Positions 30,152 through 35,341 of a stretch of DNA of 37,684 bases are shown here, piece after piece. Origin of the DNA: Kiritimatiellia bacterium. GTDB lineage: Bacteria > Verrucomicrobiota > Kiritimatiellia > RFP12 > UBA1067. The stretch's first letter is position 1, and each line of letters begins with the position of its first letter. The position numbers and the translations under genes are program-made. The notes beneath the pieces are model-generated. The model did no database searches and had not been told where the DNA came from. It saw nothing but the letters and a program-made list of their open reading frames with translations. The stretch spans positions 1 through 37,684 of the forward strand of contig JAFXTB010000026.1 in the NCBI GenBank assembly GCA_017525225.1. The letters run 5' to 3'.

Positions 30152-31597
30152 TTACCTCTCGTCTTGTTTGTCTGTCGTACTTGCGGATGTGAGTACCGCC
30201 AAGCCTTTTGCGGTAAGGCGATACTTCTGCGTGGGCGAACGCGGCGAATCGGGCTGCGTTAGTTCGATTAAACCAAGCCGCACTGCTGGACGCAGATAAT
30301 CTTCAGTGAAGGTCACTCTGTCTTTAAGTGACAATGCGCTCATTATCGCAGATCGAGGCATATCCCCCTTGATAACAGAAAGAAGCCGATTTACTTGTAG
30401 GGTCACTTGTTGGCTACTTGTAGGGTTACTTGTAGGGTTTATAGACACTACTTGGGGTACTGGAGGTGTCACTGGGAGCGCTACTTGGGCTTTTACATAT
30501 ACGGCGGCGACGGGTTGACCCTCCCTGTCCTGGGTGATGTAGGGTACGGTCATACGGATGAAGTTGTCGAGGAAGATAAAGTTCTCCCGCGCGTACTTCT
30601 GCATGATGTAACCCATGCCCGAGCCGAGAGATTCGACAAGTTCAAGGTCGCGAAATATGCGCATCAGTTCCTTGTTGCGAGGGATGGAAACACCCGCGAA
30701 GAAGTCATCCTTTGTGAGGCCCTCCGGCAAGCGTCCGAACGAGGTTATCTCTAGATGGTCGGAGAAGAGTTCGACCTTGGGCGGCACTTCGCGTGTGTAG
30801 TCGTTGTGGACGATGGCGTTGATGACGGCTTCACGCACGGCCTTCTCGTCCCAGAGCGGCGTGTCAATGCGCTCCAAGGCAGTCTTGCGCGTCCGCACGG
30901 TGTTCTCCACCTTCAGCCGTTCGATTACACGTTTCGTGGCGGTGACGAGTGAGGTCATGCCGTATTCGTTGTTGGCGACGAGTTCCACGCGATCGCACCC
31001 TGCGTACTTCGCAACCTTGATTGAGTTCGCGTTTTCGTCGGCAAGAAGATATGCGGCGTAGTTGTACGCGCCATCGTCCGTCAGCAATTCCAGCGTCCGC
31101 GCAAAGTTGTCGTTGAGTTTGAAGCCATGTTCTTGGTAGTAGATGCGCAATTGCTCGAAGGTGAGGTCTTGCCGGACGGAGCGTATGCGCCCGATGGAGT
31201 TTCGCACACGCCTTGCGAAAAGGTCTTCAATCATCGCCTCCGGCATCGGTTCGCAAGCCGTGCCCACGCGGATGAAACAACCCTTTGGTGTCATGCCATA
31301 GCGTTTGAGGTAGTATGGCTTCTCGCTGCCACCCGCGAAGAACACTTTGATTACCTTCACGCCGCCCACCTCGTCCGCCGTCACGTCGAACAGCCCCATT
31401 GCGGACGGAAGGAGGTTGTTGCGCAGTCTGTCCTTGATCTTGAGGATGTCGCCGTCGATATCCTTCACGCCGACGGGCTTCCCCGCCTTGTCGATACCGA
31501 TGTACAGGATGCCGCCTTCGCGCCTATTGAGGAACGCGACGGCTTCCTCTTCAAGGTCGATGTCGGGCGAAGTTGCTTGGTGTCGTGAGTCAGACAT
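30152..31597 (-). CDS. AlbA_2/Schlafen-like ATP-binding regulator, N-terminally short
   Basis: 481 residues. The order is AlbA_2 core (AVAFLNRREGGILYIGIDKA, GCFIRVG), a GHKL-like ATPase region (VREAVINAIVHNDYTREVP, LEITSFGRLPEG, GSGMGYIMQ), a Thr/Pro/Gln/Val linker, and a C-terminal winged helix (~420-475). Relatives carry a Glu-x-Lys stretch (consensus E-[FY]-K) about 10 residues before AVAFLN; here the protein starts with an unrelated MSDSRHQATSPDIDL, a TGA lies directly upstream, and no SD is seen. So the gene may be 5'-truncated or rearranged. Proteins of this type are suspected regulators or defence components. Heads a three-gene leftward set. Confidence 0.78.
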   Translation of the reverse strand: MSDSRHQATSPDIDLEEEAVAFLNRREGGILYIGIDKAGKPVGVKDIDGDILKIKDRLRNNLLPSAMGLFDVTADEVGGVKVIKVFFAGGSEKPYYLKRYGMTPKGCFIRVGTACEPMPEAMIEDLFARRVRNSIGRIRSVRQDLTFEQLRIYYQEHGFKLNDNFARTLELLTDDGAYNYAAYLLADENANSIKVAKYAGCDRVELVANNEYGMTSLVTATKRVIERLKVENTVRTRKTALERIDTPLWDEKAVREAVINAIVHNDYTREVPPKVELFSDHLEITSFGRLPEGLTKDDFFAGVSIPRNKELMRIFRDLELVESLGSGMGYIMQKYARENFIFLDNFIRMTVPYITQDREGQPVAAVYVKAQVALPVTPPVPQVVSINPTSNPTSSQQVTLQVNRLLSVIKGDMPRSAIMSALSLKDRVTFTEDYLRPAVRLGLIELTQPDSPRSPTQKYRLTAKGLAVLTSASTTDKQDER

Positions 31598-31850: not shown

Positions 31851-31877
31851 GTTGCCCAACGCGAAGCGTAAAAATGA

Positions 31878-31883
31878 TATAAT
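31878..31883 (+). promoter_or_regulatory. Extended -10 for the restriction-modification gene
   Basis: A perfect TATAAT with TGA directly upstream. No good -35 at 16-18 bp; TTGCCC lies 20 bp away. Transcription would begin near 31890, giving a leader of about 230 nt that contains the structured element at 31989-32113. Confidence 0.55.
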
Positions 31884-31988
31884 ACACACCAATTCAAGCC
31901 ACCCGTGACTCGGCATGGACGGTGCGAAGGACATAGCCAAAGCGGACGTAAGTTCGCCTGTGCGTTTTAGAGTGACTTACAACAATCA

Positions 31989-32113
31989 GCGGTTTGGAAC
32001 CTGAGAAATTTCGTATTGCTGGATTCGTTGCGAGGGCACGCGAAAGCGTGGCCTCTCTTCGGATGAGCAATACGGGCAATCTCAGGGCCTCAAACCGCCA
32101 CCAAAGAGAGGCC
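31989..32113 (+). ncRNA. Long leader hairpin with alternative pairing to the ribosome binding site
   Basis: 31989-32098 can fold into one long interrupted hairpin: GCGGTTTG with CAAACCGC (8 bp), CCTGAGA with TCTCAGG (7), GTATTGCT with AGCAATAC (8), a 5-bp helix including one G-U pair, GAGG with CCTC, and CACGC with GCGTG capped by a GAAA tetraloop. The SD AGAGG at 32107-32111 lies just 3' of this fold and would be free. Yet GGCCTCTCTT at 32050-32059, inside the hairpin, is perfectly complementary over 10 bases to AAGAGAGGCC at 32104-32113, which contains the SD. The two folds exclude each other, so the leader can act as a translational switch. The trigger is unknown and no known riboswitch class is recognised. 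Confidence 0.65.
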
Positions 32114-32119
32114 CTTAAA

Positions 32120-35100
32120 ATGACAAAGAAGAATACGACGAACGCGAAGACCCCTTCTACAAAGAAGGTGTTAGACGGAGAGGCTGTATGTGCAAAATAT
32201 GTCGCCGCCGTAAGCCGCATGTGGCAGGACGGTTCGGGAACTGAAGTCTCCTACCGCGACGAATTGACACCTCTTCTTCGCGCCCTGCTTCCGGGATGCA
32301 AGGTCATTAACGAGCCGAAGTCAACCAAGAGAGAAAAAGCGGAAGCGAAAAGAAACAAGCCCGACTACGTGATTAAGGATAACGGCGACCTTGCCGTCGC
32401 CTATCTTGAAACAAAGGACATAGGCACTGGCGACCTTGAAGGGAAGAAAGATTCCGGACACAAGGAACAGTTCGACCGCTACAAGGAGGACTTCGACACC
32501 GTGGCTTTTACGGACTTTCTTGTGTTTGACTTCTATGCGAAAAATACTCACGAAGAAAGATGCCGCCTAATCGACTCCGTGTGCATCGCAGAAATCGCAG
32601 GCGACAACATCCGCCCGCTCAACGAAAACTTCGGAAGGTTCGTCTTCCGCATAGAAGAGATGGGATGCGCGAAGCCGCAGACAATCTCCTCCCCCACGCA
32701 ACTTGCTCAGCTCATGGCAAAGAAAGCGCGGCATCTTCAAGTCGCGGCACATAAGTTTCTCGAAAGCGACGGTGCGCAAGGTTCTACGTTGCTGGAACTG
32801 ATGGAAGGTTTCAAGCACGTTCTCATGCCTAAAACCAACGCCGATGAATTCTCGGACATCTATGCACAGACACTGACATACGGCATGTTTGCCGCCCGTC
32901 TCCACGACGACACGCCGGAGGACTTTTCACGCGAAGAGGCGGCACGGCTTATCCCGAAAAGCAATCCGTTCCTTCGCAAACTATTCAACCACATCAATTC
33001 GGACATCGACAAGGAAATTGAATGGGCAGTAGACGACATCGTGCGTCTGTTCGCCGCCGCAGATGTCAGAGGCATTATGAAGGACTACGGCAAGTCCAAG
33101 AAGCACAACGACCCGATGATACATTTCTACGAGGACTTCCTCAACGCCTACGATGCGGGGCTTCGCAAGGAAAGGGGCGTGTGGTACACGCCGCTCCCAG
33201 TCGTTAGGTTCATAGTTCGAGCCGTCGATGACATCCTCATAAAACACTTCGGCATCAAAGACGGAATCGCAAGCCGCGACATGGTACAGATTGAAGTAAA
33301 CGAGGGTTGCGACACGGGGAAGAGGCTAACAAAGAAGGTCAAGAAGATCGTGCCAAGAGTTCAGATACTTGACCCCGCAACGGGAACGGGTACGTTCCTC
33401 GCCGAATGCATCAACCGCATCTACGATAAGTTCCTTGCAAACAGGGGCATGTGGCCTGAATACGTATCCGAGAACCTAATTCCCCGTCTAAACGGCTTTG
33501 AACTTCTAATGGCTCCATATACGATGGCGCACATCAAGATTGACAGGGTGCTTTCCGAAACTGGCTACAACCACACGACAAACGGACGCTTCAATATCTT
33601 TCTGACGGACTCGCTCGAAAAGGCCAAGGACATCAACGGCGCACTCTTCGACATCATTCTTGGCGCAGAGGCAAACGCCGCAAACTCCGTCAAGCGCGAT
33701 TGCCCCGTCATGGTCGTGGTGGGGAATCCGCCCTATAGTGGAATCTCACAGAACAACGGCAAATGGATTACCGACCTTGTGGCGGACTATAAGACTGAAC
33801 CTGGCGGCAAGGAGAACCTCAAGGAGCGCAAGCATTGGTTAAACGACGACTATGTAAAGTTCATCCGTCTTGCACAGGAATATGTCAAGAATCGCGGCGA
33901 GGGGGTTCTCGCCTACATCAACAACCACGGACTGCTTGACAATCCGACCTTCCGTGGCATGAGATGGCAACTGCTCGACTGCTTCGACGAAATATACGTA
34001 CTGAACCTTCACGGTAATTCGATGAAGCATGAGAAGGCACCTGACGGTGGCAAGGACGAGAACGTGTTTTCAATCACCGTCGGCACGGCAATCAACATCT
34101 TCGTCAAGACGGGCAAAAAGAAGAACGGTGAACTCGCAAAAGTTCACTACGCTGACCTGTGGGGAACACGTAAGGACAAGTTTGCCTACCTTGAAAGCAA
34201 GTCTTTGGCAAATGTGAGATTCGCCTCTGTCGCACCGACCGCACCATATTATCTCTTTGTACCGCAGGATGTGACAGGATGTGAACAGTATAAGTCAGGA
34301 TTCGGTATAGATCAACTGCTACCAATAAACAGTACCGCTGTTCTCACTATGGGGGATTCGTTTGCTGTTGCACAGACAGAAGATGAACTCAAAGAACGCA
34401 TAAGCGACATCAACCGTAAAGAGTATAAGGAAATGGAACTTAAGTCAAAGTATGGTCTTGGAAAGAACTACGCCTCTTTCGTCTTGGGCAACTTACCGAT
34501 TGACTCCAATAGCAGTATAGTTCGCTATGCCTATCGCCCGTTCGACGATAGATGGATATGTTTTACGCCAAAGACGGTGTGGCGTCAGCGGAAACCAGTC
34601 ATGCAACATATCCACCAACATCGCAACATAGCACTTGTTGTTTGCAAGCACCTTGCCACAAATGATTGGAATCTAGTTGGCGTAGCAGATTGCCTTGTAG
34701 ACGATTGCTTTGTTTCAAGCCGCACGAAAGAGCGTGGTTATGTCTTTCCCCTCTACCTCTACCAAGACACGTTGGGGCATGTTGAGAAAGTACCGAACTT
34801 CGACAAGGAGATATTTGAGCGTATCGCGGACGGCTTGAAGCGCAAGCCATTGCCCGAAGAACTTTTCGACTACATCTATGCCGTCCTTCACACGCCTGAA
34901 TACCGCGAACGCTACAAGGAATTTCTGAAGGTGAATTTCCCGCGCATACACTATCCGACGAATGCGGCAGTATTCAAGAAACTTGCGAAGATTGGCGGCG
35001 AACTGCGCGAGACGCACCTTATGAAAGCAAGCCTATCGACAAGTGGGCGCAAGTCGCTAGCCAACTTCCCGATAGACGGGAATCGTCTCGTTGAGGATGT

Positions 35101-35341
35101 GCGCTTCGTAAACGGCAAGGTGTACATCAATGATGAGCAATACTTTGACCATGTGCCGGAAGAGGCGTGGGGCATGTTCATCGGCGGCTACCAACCCGCG
35201 CAGAAATGGCTCAAGGACAGGAAAGGACGCACACTCACCCTTGATGACATCGAACACTATCAGGCCATCATTCCTGCACTCATGCGCACCCGCGCCCTCA
35301 TGCAGAAACTCTCCGCGCTATCGAAGGACTGGCTCAAGTGA
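32120..35341 (+). CDS. Single-chain restriction-modification enzyme, type ISP/IIG
   Basis: 1,073 residues. The ATG lies 8 bp after GAGAGG. The N-terminal nuclease region has a PD-(D/E)xK arrangement (KPDYV with Asp82, then YLETK with Glu97 and Lys99). The N6-adenine methyltransferase core has motif I DPATGTGTF at 418-426 and motif IV NPPY at 536-539. The C-terminal ISP-type region (RYAYRPFDDRWICF, YAVLHTPEYRERYKEFL) should hold target recognition. The SNF2/helicase block of true type ISP enzymes is missing, so it should cut near its site without long translocation. No separate specificity gene is needed. It has its own promoter and a structured leader, consistent with tight control of a potentially toxic nuclease. 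Confidence 0.9.
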   Translation: MTKKNTTNAKTPSTKKVLDGEAVCAKYVAAVSRMWQDGSGTEVSYRDELTPLLRALLPGCKVINEPKSTKREKAEAKRNKPDYVIKDNGDLAVAYLETKDIGTGDLEGKKDSGHKEQFDRYKEDFDTVAFTDFLVFDFYAKNTHEERCRLIDSVCIAEIAGDNIRPLNENFGRFVFRIEEMGCAKPQTISSPTQLAQLMAKKARHLQVAAHKFLESDGAQGSTLLELMEGFKHVLMPKTNADEFSDIYAQTLTYGMFAARLHDDTPEDFSREEAARLIPKSNPFLRKLFNHINSDIDKEIEWAVDDIVRLFAAADVRGIMKDYGKSKKHNDPMIHFYEDFLNAYDAGLRKERGVWYTPLPVVRFIVRAVDDILIKHFGIKDGIASRDMVQIEVNEGCDTGKRLTKKVKKIVPRVQILDPATGTGTFLAECINRIYDKFLANRGMWPEYVSENLIPRLNGFELLMAPYTMAHIKIDRVLSETGYNHTTNGRFNIFLTDSLEKAKDINGALFDIILGAEANAANSVKRDCPVMVVVGNPPYSGISQNNGKWITDLVADYKTEPGGKENLKERKHWLNDDYVKFIRLAQEYVKNRGEGVLAYINNHGLLDNPTFRGMRWQLLDCFDEIYVLNLHGNSMKHEKAPDGGKDENVFSITVGTAINIFVKTGKKKNGELAKVHYADLWGTRKDKFAYLESKSLANVRFASVAPTAPYYLFVPQDVTGCEQYKSGFGIDQLLPINSTAVLTMGDSFAVAQTEDELKERISDINRKEYKEMELKSKYGLGKNYASFVLGNLPIDSNSSIVRYAYRPFDDRWICFTPKTVWRQRKPVMQHIHQHRNIALVVCKHLATNDWNLVGVADCLVDDCFVSSRTKERGYVFPLYLYQDTLGHVEKVPNFDKEIFERIADGLKRKPLPEELFDYIYAVLHTPEYRERYKEFLKVNFPRIHYPTNAAVFKKLAKIGGELRETHLMKASLSTSGRKSLANFPIDGNRLVEDVRFVNGKVYINDEQYFDHVPEEAWGMFIGGYQPAQKWLKDRKGRTLTLDDIEHYQAIIPALMRTRALMQKLSALSKDWLK

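Follow-up and report, generated by a model that had tools for sequence, protein, structure and literature searches.

How is the restriction-modification (R-M) gene at 32120-35341 (+ strand) controlled, and is the RNA in front of it a switch? The gene lies in the window, i.e. the whole 37,684-nt stretch of Kiritimatiellia bacterium DNA analysed here (contig JAFXTB010000026.1), and encodes a 1073-aa single-chain R-M enzyme, Type IIG-like with an ISP C-terminal domain according to Pfam and PADLOC. The original prediction, made from the letters of the window, had placed a hairpin of about 110 nt between promoter and start codon, with a 10-base segment that could mask the Shine-Dalgarno sequence (SD). 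The comparative analysis described below suggests that this leader represents a two-state cis-regulatory RNA family spread across the class, a reading to which we assign a probability of roughly three in four.

Fold and parts of the window leader

Folding of positions 31980-32125 gave a minimum free energy of -66.2 kcal/mol, against -40.1 +/- 3.8 for shuffled sequences (z -6.9; none of 200 shuffles equalled it), and confirmed a very stable hairpin at 31989-32098, where it had been predicted. Its outer helices are P1, formed by GCGGTTTG (31989-31996) and 32091-32098; P2, formed by CCTGAGA (32000-32006) and 32080-32086, the latter followed by a conserved GCCTC; and P3, formed by 32012-32020 and 32066-32074. 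Within them, strand X (GATTCG...GAGG, 32022-32035) pairs with strand Y (GGCCTCTCTTCGGAT, 32050-32064), and the apical hairpin P4 occupies 32037-32050. Strand Z (CCAAAGAGAGGCC, 32101-32113) comes after the hairpin and contains the SD GAGAGG (32106-32111), which precedes the start codon at 32120 by 8 nt; the conserved element as a whole spans 31987-32118. In the long-hairpin fold of the window copy the SD is unpaired. As the original prediction had stated, GGCCTCTCTT (32050-32059) is perfectly complementary to the SD-bearing AAGAGAGGCC (32104-32113) at a spacing of 44 nt. When the hairpin region was dinucleotide-shuffled 3000 times, complements of at least 10 nt to the SD tail arose in just 5 of the shuffles. 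Strand Y could therefore pair with X, in what would be the ON state, or with Z, in what would be the OFF state.

Upstream of the hairpin there is an extended -10 promoter-like box, TGATATAAT (31875-31883, + strand), whose TATAAT (31878-31883) lies ~105 nt 5' of the hairpin. When the window leader was scanned strictly for sigma-70 promoters and for terminators, neither a full promoter nor a terminator was found. Because the window and the 5 other R-M copies inspected (L002, L004, L014, L025, and L026) all have a TATAAT 109-156 nt 5' of the element, the leader is probably transcribed from this extended -10, with a start near 31890. The 5' part of the leader (31930-31988), which includes GGACATAGCC and an upstream segment, is partly conserved in the alignment with L002, L004, L025, L026, and L064. 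A readable upstream frame is present in the window, and no counterpart was seen in the other R-M leaders.

Distribution and covariation of the element

A DNA search found a second copy of the leader in the genome of the window, 74% identical and directly before an unrelated gene, that of an EcoRI-type methyltransferase, as well as two further copies in relatives. Among these four copies the loops were invariant and the P1 and P3 helices showed compensatory changes; a covariance model was built from them. With this model the element was detected, mostly at full length, in 103 of the 162 genomes of the order, with up to 19 copies per genome (about 8 in the genome of the window), and in 102 of the 346 genomes of the class at E <= 1e-6. 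In a sample of the phylum searched at E <= 1e-8, 33 of 388 genomes carried it, all but one within class Kiritimatiellae; the sole match outside the class (G592:C170:1720-1851, E 1.5e-11) is possibly a transfer or a binning error. When 84,980 named species genomes were scanned for the pattern, 54 stretches matched; their records are titled as MAGs of Kiritimatiellae, Verrucomicrobia, Lentisphaerae, or Victivallales or as uncultured RUG (rumen) bacteria. The exact element pattern was absent from viral contigs. When the window copy and 16 others were compared with Rfam 15 (4227 families), none matched at the gathering score, and permissive thresholds produced chance-level matches only. The leader is a member of an uncatalogued structured-RNA family that is nearly limited to class Kiritimatiellae (gut). 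We found no paper on riboswitches in Kiritimatiellae and, among open-licence literature, none on a class-wide two-state RNA family that serves R-M and other genes.

Covariation was analyzed in 2 alignments. In a MAFFT alignment of 107 copies made without structure information (effective number 102 at 85% identity), the column-pair covariation was highest for P1 (z ~30), P3 (~25), and P2 (~20), followed by the X-Y column pair 81-122 (z 11.9), and Y-Z was paired at 81-100% across ~15 positions. Column 122, which belongs to Y, tracked its X and Z partners together (C-G-C in 34 copies, T-A-T in 30), as expected for a shared strand with 2 partners. The second alignment, of 95 copies, was fitted to X-Y and not to Y-Z, so that the independent support for X-Y is that of the MAFFT alignment; in it, X-Y was paired at 96.8% overall and at 98.9% in the covarying helix, Y-Z at 94.2%, with changes on both sides in 9 of its 15 pairs, and the hairpin in 92.4% of cells, while Y-Z registers slid out of place were paired at 50-64%. 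Compensatory cells numbered 814 in the hairpin (232 in shuffles), 56 in the X-Y helix (17 in shuffles; 0 of 500 as high), and 44 in Y-Z (7 in shuffles; 0 of 500 as high), in a comparison where the shuffle controls ignore the relatedness of the copies, which are diverse. G-U pairs exceeded A-C mismatches by 296 to 72, and by 185 to 27 within Y-Z, which indicates that the + strand folds, as RNA.

The comparative test also revealed an aptamer-like core in which covarying stems surround conserved loop letters, including GCAGAGG, GAAA, and GCCTC. Both mutually exclusive helices, X-Y and Y-Z, covary, as they would in an expression platform. This conservation and covariation of both rival pairings among related leaders upholds the switch-like leader of the original prediction, with an SD free in the long hairpin and masked in the alternative fold, and the comparative evidence for a two-state leader in which Y-Z would be the OFF state is strong. 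The same data bear on a different reading, namely a single static pseudoknotted RNA, with X held by the 5' segment and Y by Z at the same time, that would serve as a stability or pausing element. It would agree with the high conservation of Y-Z and with the complementarity between the 5' segment and X, which occurs at six positions in 82-90% of aligned copies and could tentatively reflect 5' pseudoknot contacts (TCGTC with GACGA, CTGCAA with TTGCAG). However, this 5' contact shows little covariation, and the covariation of X-Y is unexplained unless X and Y pair; we thus find the static RNA quite unlikely.

Genes behind the leader and the two types of output

The leader precedes a wide range of genes. 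Among 105 downstream proteins, Pfam identified BspA-type leucine-rich repeats (19 proteins), Sel1, acyltransferase, and papain-like protease domains and zinc ribbons, together with EcoRI methylase (3) and N6 methylases, and PADLOC assigned downstream proteins to Type IIG (5), Type II MTase (3), and Type III MTase (1), with single matches to other defence systems. By a simple window score, a hydrophobic N-terminus was present in 64 of 116 downstream proteins versus 89 of 345 background ORFs, and the genes behind most copies encode surface or secreted proteins or are unknown. A device specific to R-M genes was hence not borne out; the leader belongs to a class-wide RNA family found before many unrelated genes.

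R-M genes are nevertheless recurrent behind it. The leader is directly upstream at 20 of 30 EcoRI-type methyltransferase loci. For the window's enzyme family the figure is 6 of 30 loci, among them the window itself and the four relatives closest to it. At these 26 R-M loci every match occupied the leader position, with no others in 258 kb; although the sequences have diverged, 26 of 26 leaders keep Y-Z (-24 to -46 kcal/mol). The more diverged R-M leaders preserve the Y-Z complementarity with different letters and mostly have a U-run after Z. Leader identity was 71% between the two enzyme families, 72% within one, and 58% to ordinary copies; such equal likeness between and within families means either that the leader has been transferred among unrelated R-M genes or that function has preserved the resemblance. 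A delay of nuclease production until the DNA is methylated, as first suggested, is disfavoured, because both activities reside in one chain (by homology) and most R-M copies precede methyltransferases. EcoRI-type methyltransferases being the largest leader-bearing R-M group, the leader would gate protective activity at least as much as nuclease. The enzyme itself had been labelled Type ISP or IIG. Type ISP enzymes combine in a single chain an Mrr nuclease, an SF2 helicase-like ATPase, a coupler, a methyltransferase, and a recognition domain (PMC4666363). In the Pfam scan of the 1073 aa, the methyltransferase and the ISP C-terminal domain were present and no helicase domain was detected, and PADLOC called the enzyme Type IIG; the ISP label fits the C-terminal domain, but the enzyme is closer to Type IIG. 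Two further observations concern these loci. The gene divergent from the window leader (30152-31597, - strand) is similar to those beside L025, L026, and L064 (C-terminus NPTSNPTSS...), which suggests that leader locus and neighbour are kept as a pair. In addition, the methyltransferase gene of EcoRI type that follows the second leader copy (L002 ~1690, G000:C99:12164-13243) is broken by a single TAG where DEFYTQL has its conserved Q.

In 118 of 118 copies an ORF on the same strand begins within 450 nt of the element (median ~84 nt), which places the element as a 5' leader. What follows Z differs between copies. The 10 nt after Z contain on average 6.9 T in 102 ordinary copies versus 3.6 in 7 R-M copies, a small number from the first alignment, in which Z is the SD and the start codon comes directly after it. 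Ordinary copies have the helix and subsequent U-run of an intrinsic terminator; the window copy does not, and its Z is the SD. Y-Z is therefore predicted to be an intrinsic terminator in the about 100 ordinary U-run copies and an SD mask in window-type copies. These types do not coincide fully with gene function: in the acyltransferase copies L108-L110 the start codon lies 2-5 nt after the element, an SD-type placement beyond R-M, whereas L123/L213, an R-M copy, has a U-run and its gene lies ~110 nt downstream. In L098, L092, and L010 a second hairpin is found 10-80 nt past the U-run, and its 3' arm often contains the gene's SD (e.g. TTTTCGTTCC with GGAACGAAAA).

These observations also bear on a DNA-level explanation, in which an integron attC-like site or a palindromic mobile repeat has been taken for a leader. 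The many copies per genome that adjoin toxin-antitoxin (TA)-like and R-M genes, and the similar R-M leaders before unrelated enzymes, would suit such an element. However, just 1 of 80 fetched regions held a second copy, so there are no arrays; G-U pairs are in excess on the + strand; Z acts as SD or precedes a U-run according to the type of copy; and all copies have a same-strand gene downstream. We consider a DNA element very improbable, and an integron attC site in particular was rejected, given the lack of cassette arrays and a + strand G-U excess where bottom-strand folding would be expected.

A model for the proposed switch and its relation to known systems

In the proposed mechanism, P1-P2-P3 and X-Y would build the long hairpin with its conserved internal loops and leave Z free (ON). 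This hairpin would be complete before Z is made, and the gene would be shut off once Y changes partner and pairs with Z instead of X (OFF). In the window and in similar R-M copies, where Z is the SD strand, the OFF state would block the translation start, and in most other copies, which have a U-run after Z, it would form an intrinsic transcription terminator. The comparative evidence shows the structure, both alternative pairings, the strand, the 5'-leader position, and the two output types; the use of the two pairings as a regulated switch is what we infer from it. In most copies the energies of the two states differ little (-63.3 vs. -60.7 in L002 and -56.3 vs. -58.1 in L010), and the window copy favours the hairpin by ~10 kcal/mol, all values being those before a pseudoknot penalty. 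Similar energies, and a hairpin that by sequence order is complete before Z is transcribed, would also suit a device with no specific trigger, either a co-transcriptional timer or a thermosensor, in which Z slowly invades Y after the hairpin has formed and expression is set by transcription speed, ribosome loading, or temperature. Nonetheless, a plain timer has no need of the strongly conserved letters in the loops, and we give this explanation little credence.

The conserved loops and the regulon-like spread of the family suggest a diffusible signal. We infer that the loops bind it and that the likeliest candidate is a small molecule shared by many physiological settings, as for an orphan riboswitch, and the direction in which it would act is likewise presumed; the downstream genes are too varied to suggest a metabolite. 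The main alternative to a small molecule is a protein that binds the loops and selects the state; this could be a regulator or, for leaders of R-M genes, their own methyltransferase, the latter case being autoregulation. Next to the covarying stems lie internal loops and single-stranded motifs that are conserved, and R-M genes recur behind the leader, both of which are compatible with such a protein. However, the same loops occur before dozens of unrelated genes, so binding of the own product cannot be general, although a single global RNA-binding protein could act on all of them; on balance a protein-responsive leader seems unlikely. The more specific proposal, that this is a Kiritimatiellae-specific class of ligand-sensing riboswitches through which one global signal sets R-M enzymes and surface or secreted proteins via terminator or SD, is a tentative one that we place a little short of even odds.

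The family resembles riboswitches with alternative expression platforms in its 5'-leader position, its covarying stems around conserved loops, its shared strand with two partners, its two output types (terminator and SD masking), and its several copies per genome. It differs from them in that it matches none of the Rfam families and is nearly confined to one bacterial class. The leader appears to work like a riboswitch or attenuator, and we do not file it as a riboswitch, ligand binding being the defining feature of these. The c-di-GMP riboswitches (GEMM) have many copies per genome before diverse genes, often those of surface proteins. The leader family shares this arrangement, but c-di-GMP is unlikely as its ligand because a GGDEF protein was encoded in 0 of 15 carrier genomes versus 8 of 14 controls and Rfam gave no match. 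In R-M systems, translation is limited by an RNA hairpin in Cfr9I and by an antisense RNA in Eco29kI (PMC12707154). As in these, RNA structure would restrict access to the translation start of an R-M system; unlike them, each a single-system device, the leader family has two alternative helices and serves R-M and unrelated genes class-wide. The term riboswitch is absent from the two reviews of R-M regulation that were searched for it. Our analysis adds to cis-regulation a large uncatalogued RNA family, predicted to be two-state, with hundreds of copies in one class, and since covariation fixes its structure and alternative pairings, the ligand or trigger can be sought directly. R-M and EcoRI-type methyltransferase genes would gain a barely described kind of RNA control, and a link between R-M and surface-protein expression would matter for defence tuning in gut bacteria.

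Finally, the genes just 5' of many ordinary copies (L013, L023, L031, L038, L059, L066, L096, L121, and others) look by eye like TA toxins (PIN/VapC, HepT, GNAT, and zeta-like). A shared short frame that starts with ATG AAA GGA ACG (MKGT...) and has ~6-10 codons lies ~90 nt 5' of the element in L096, L013, L098, L018, and others, in many copies following the toxin-like genes, and is possibly a leader peptide.
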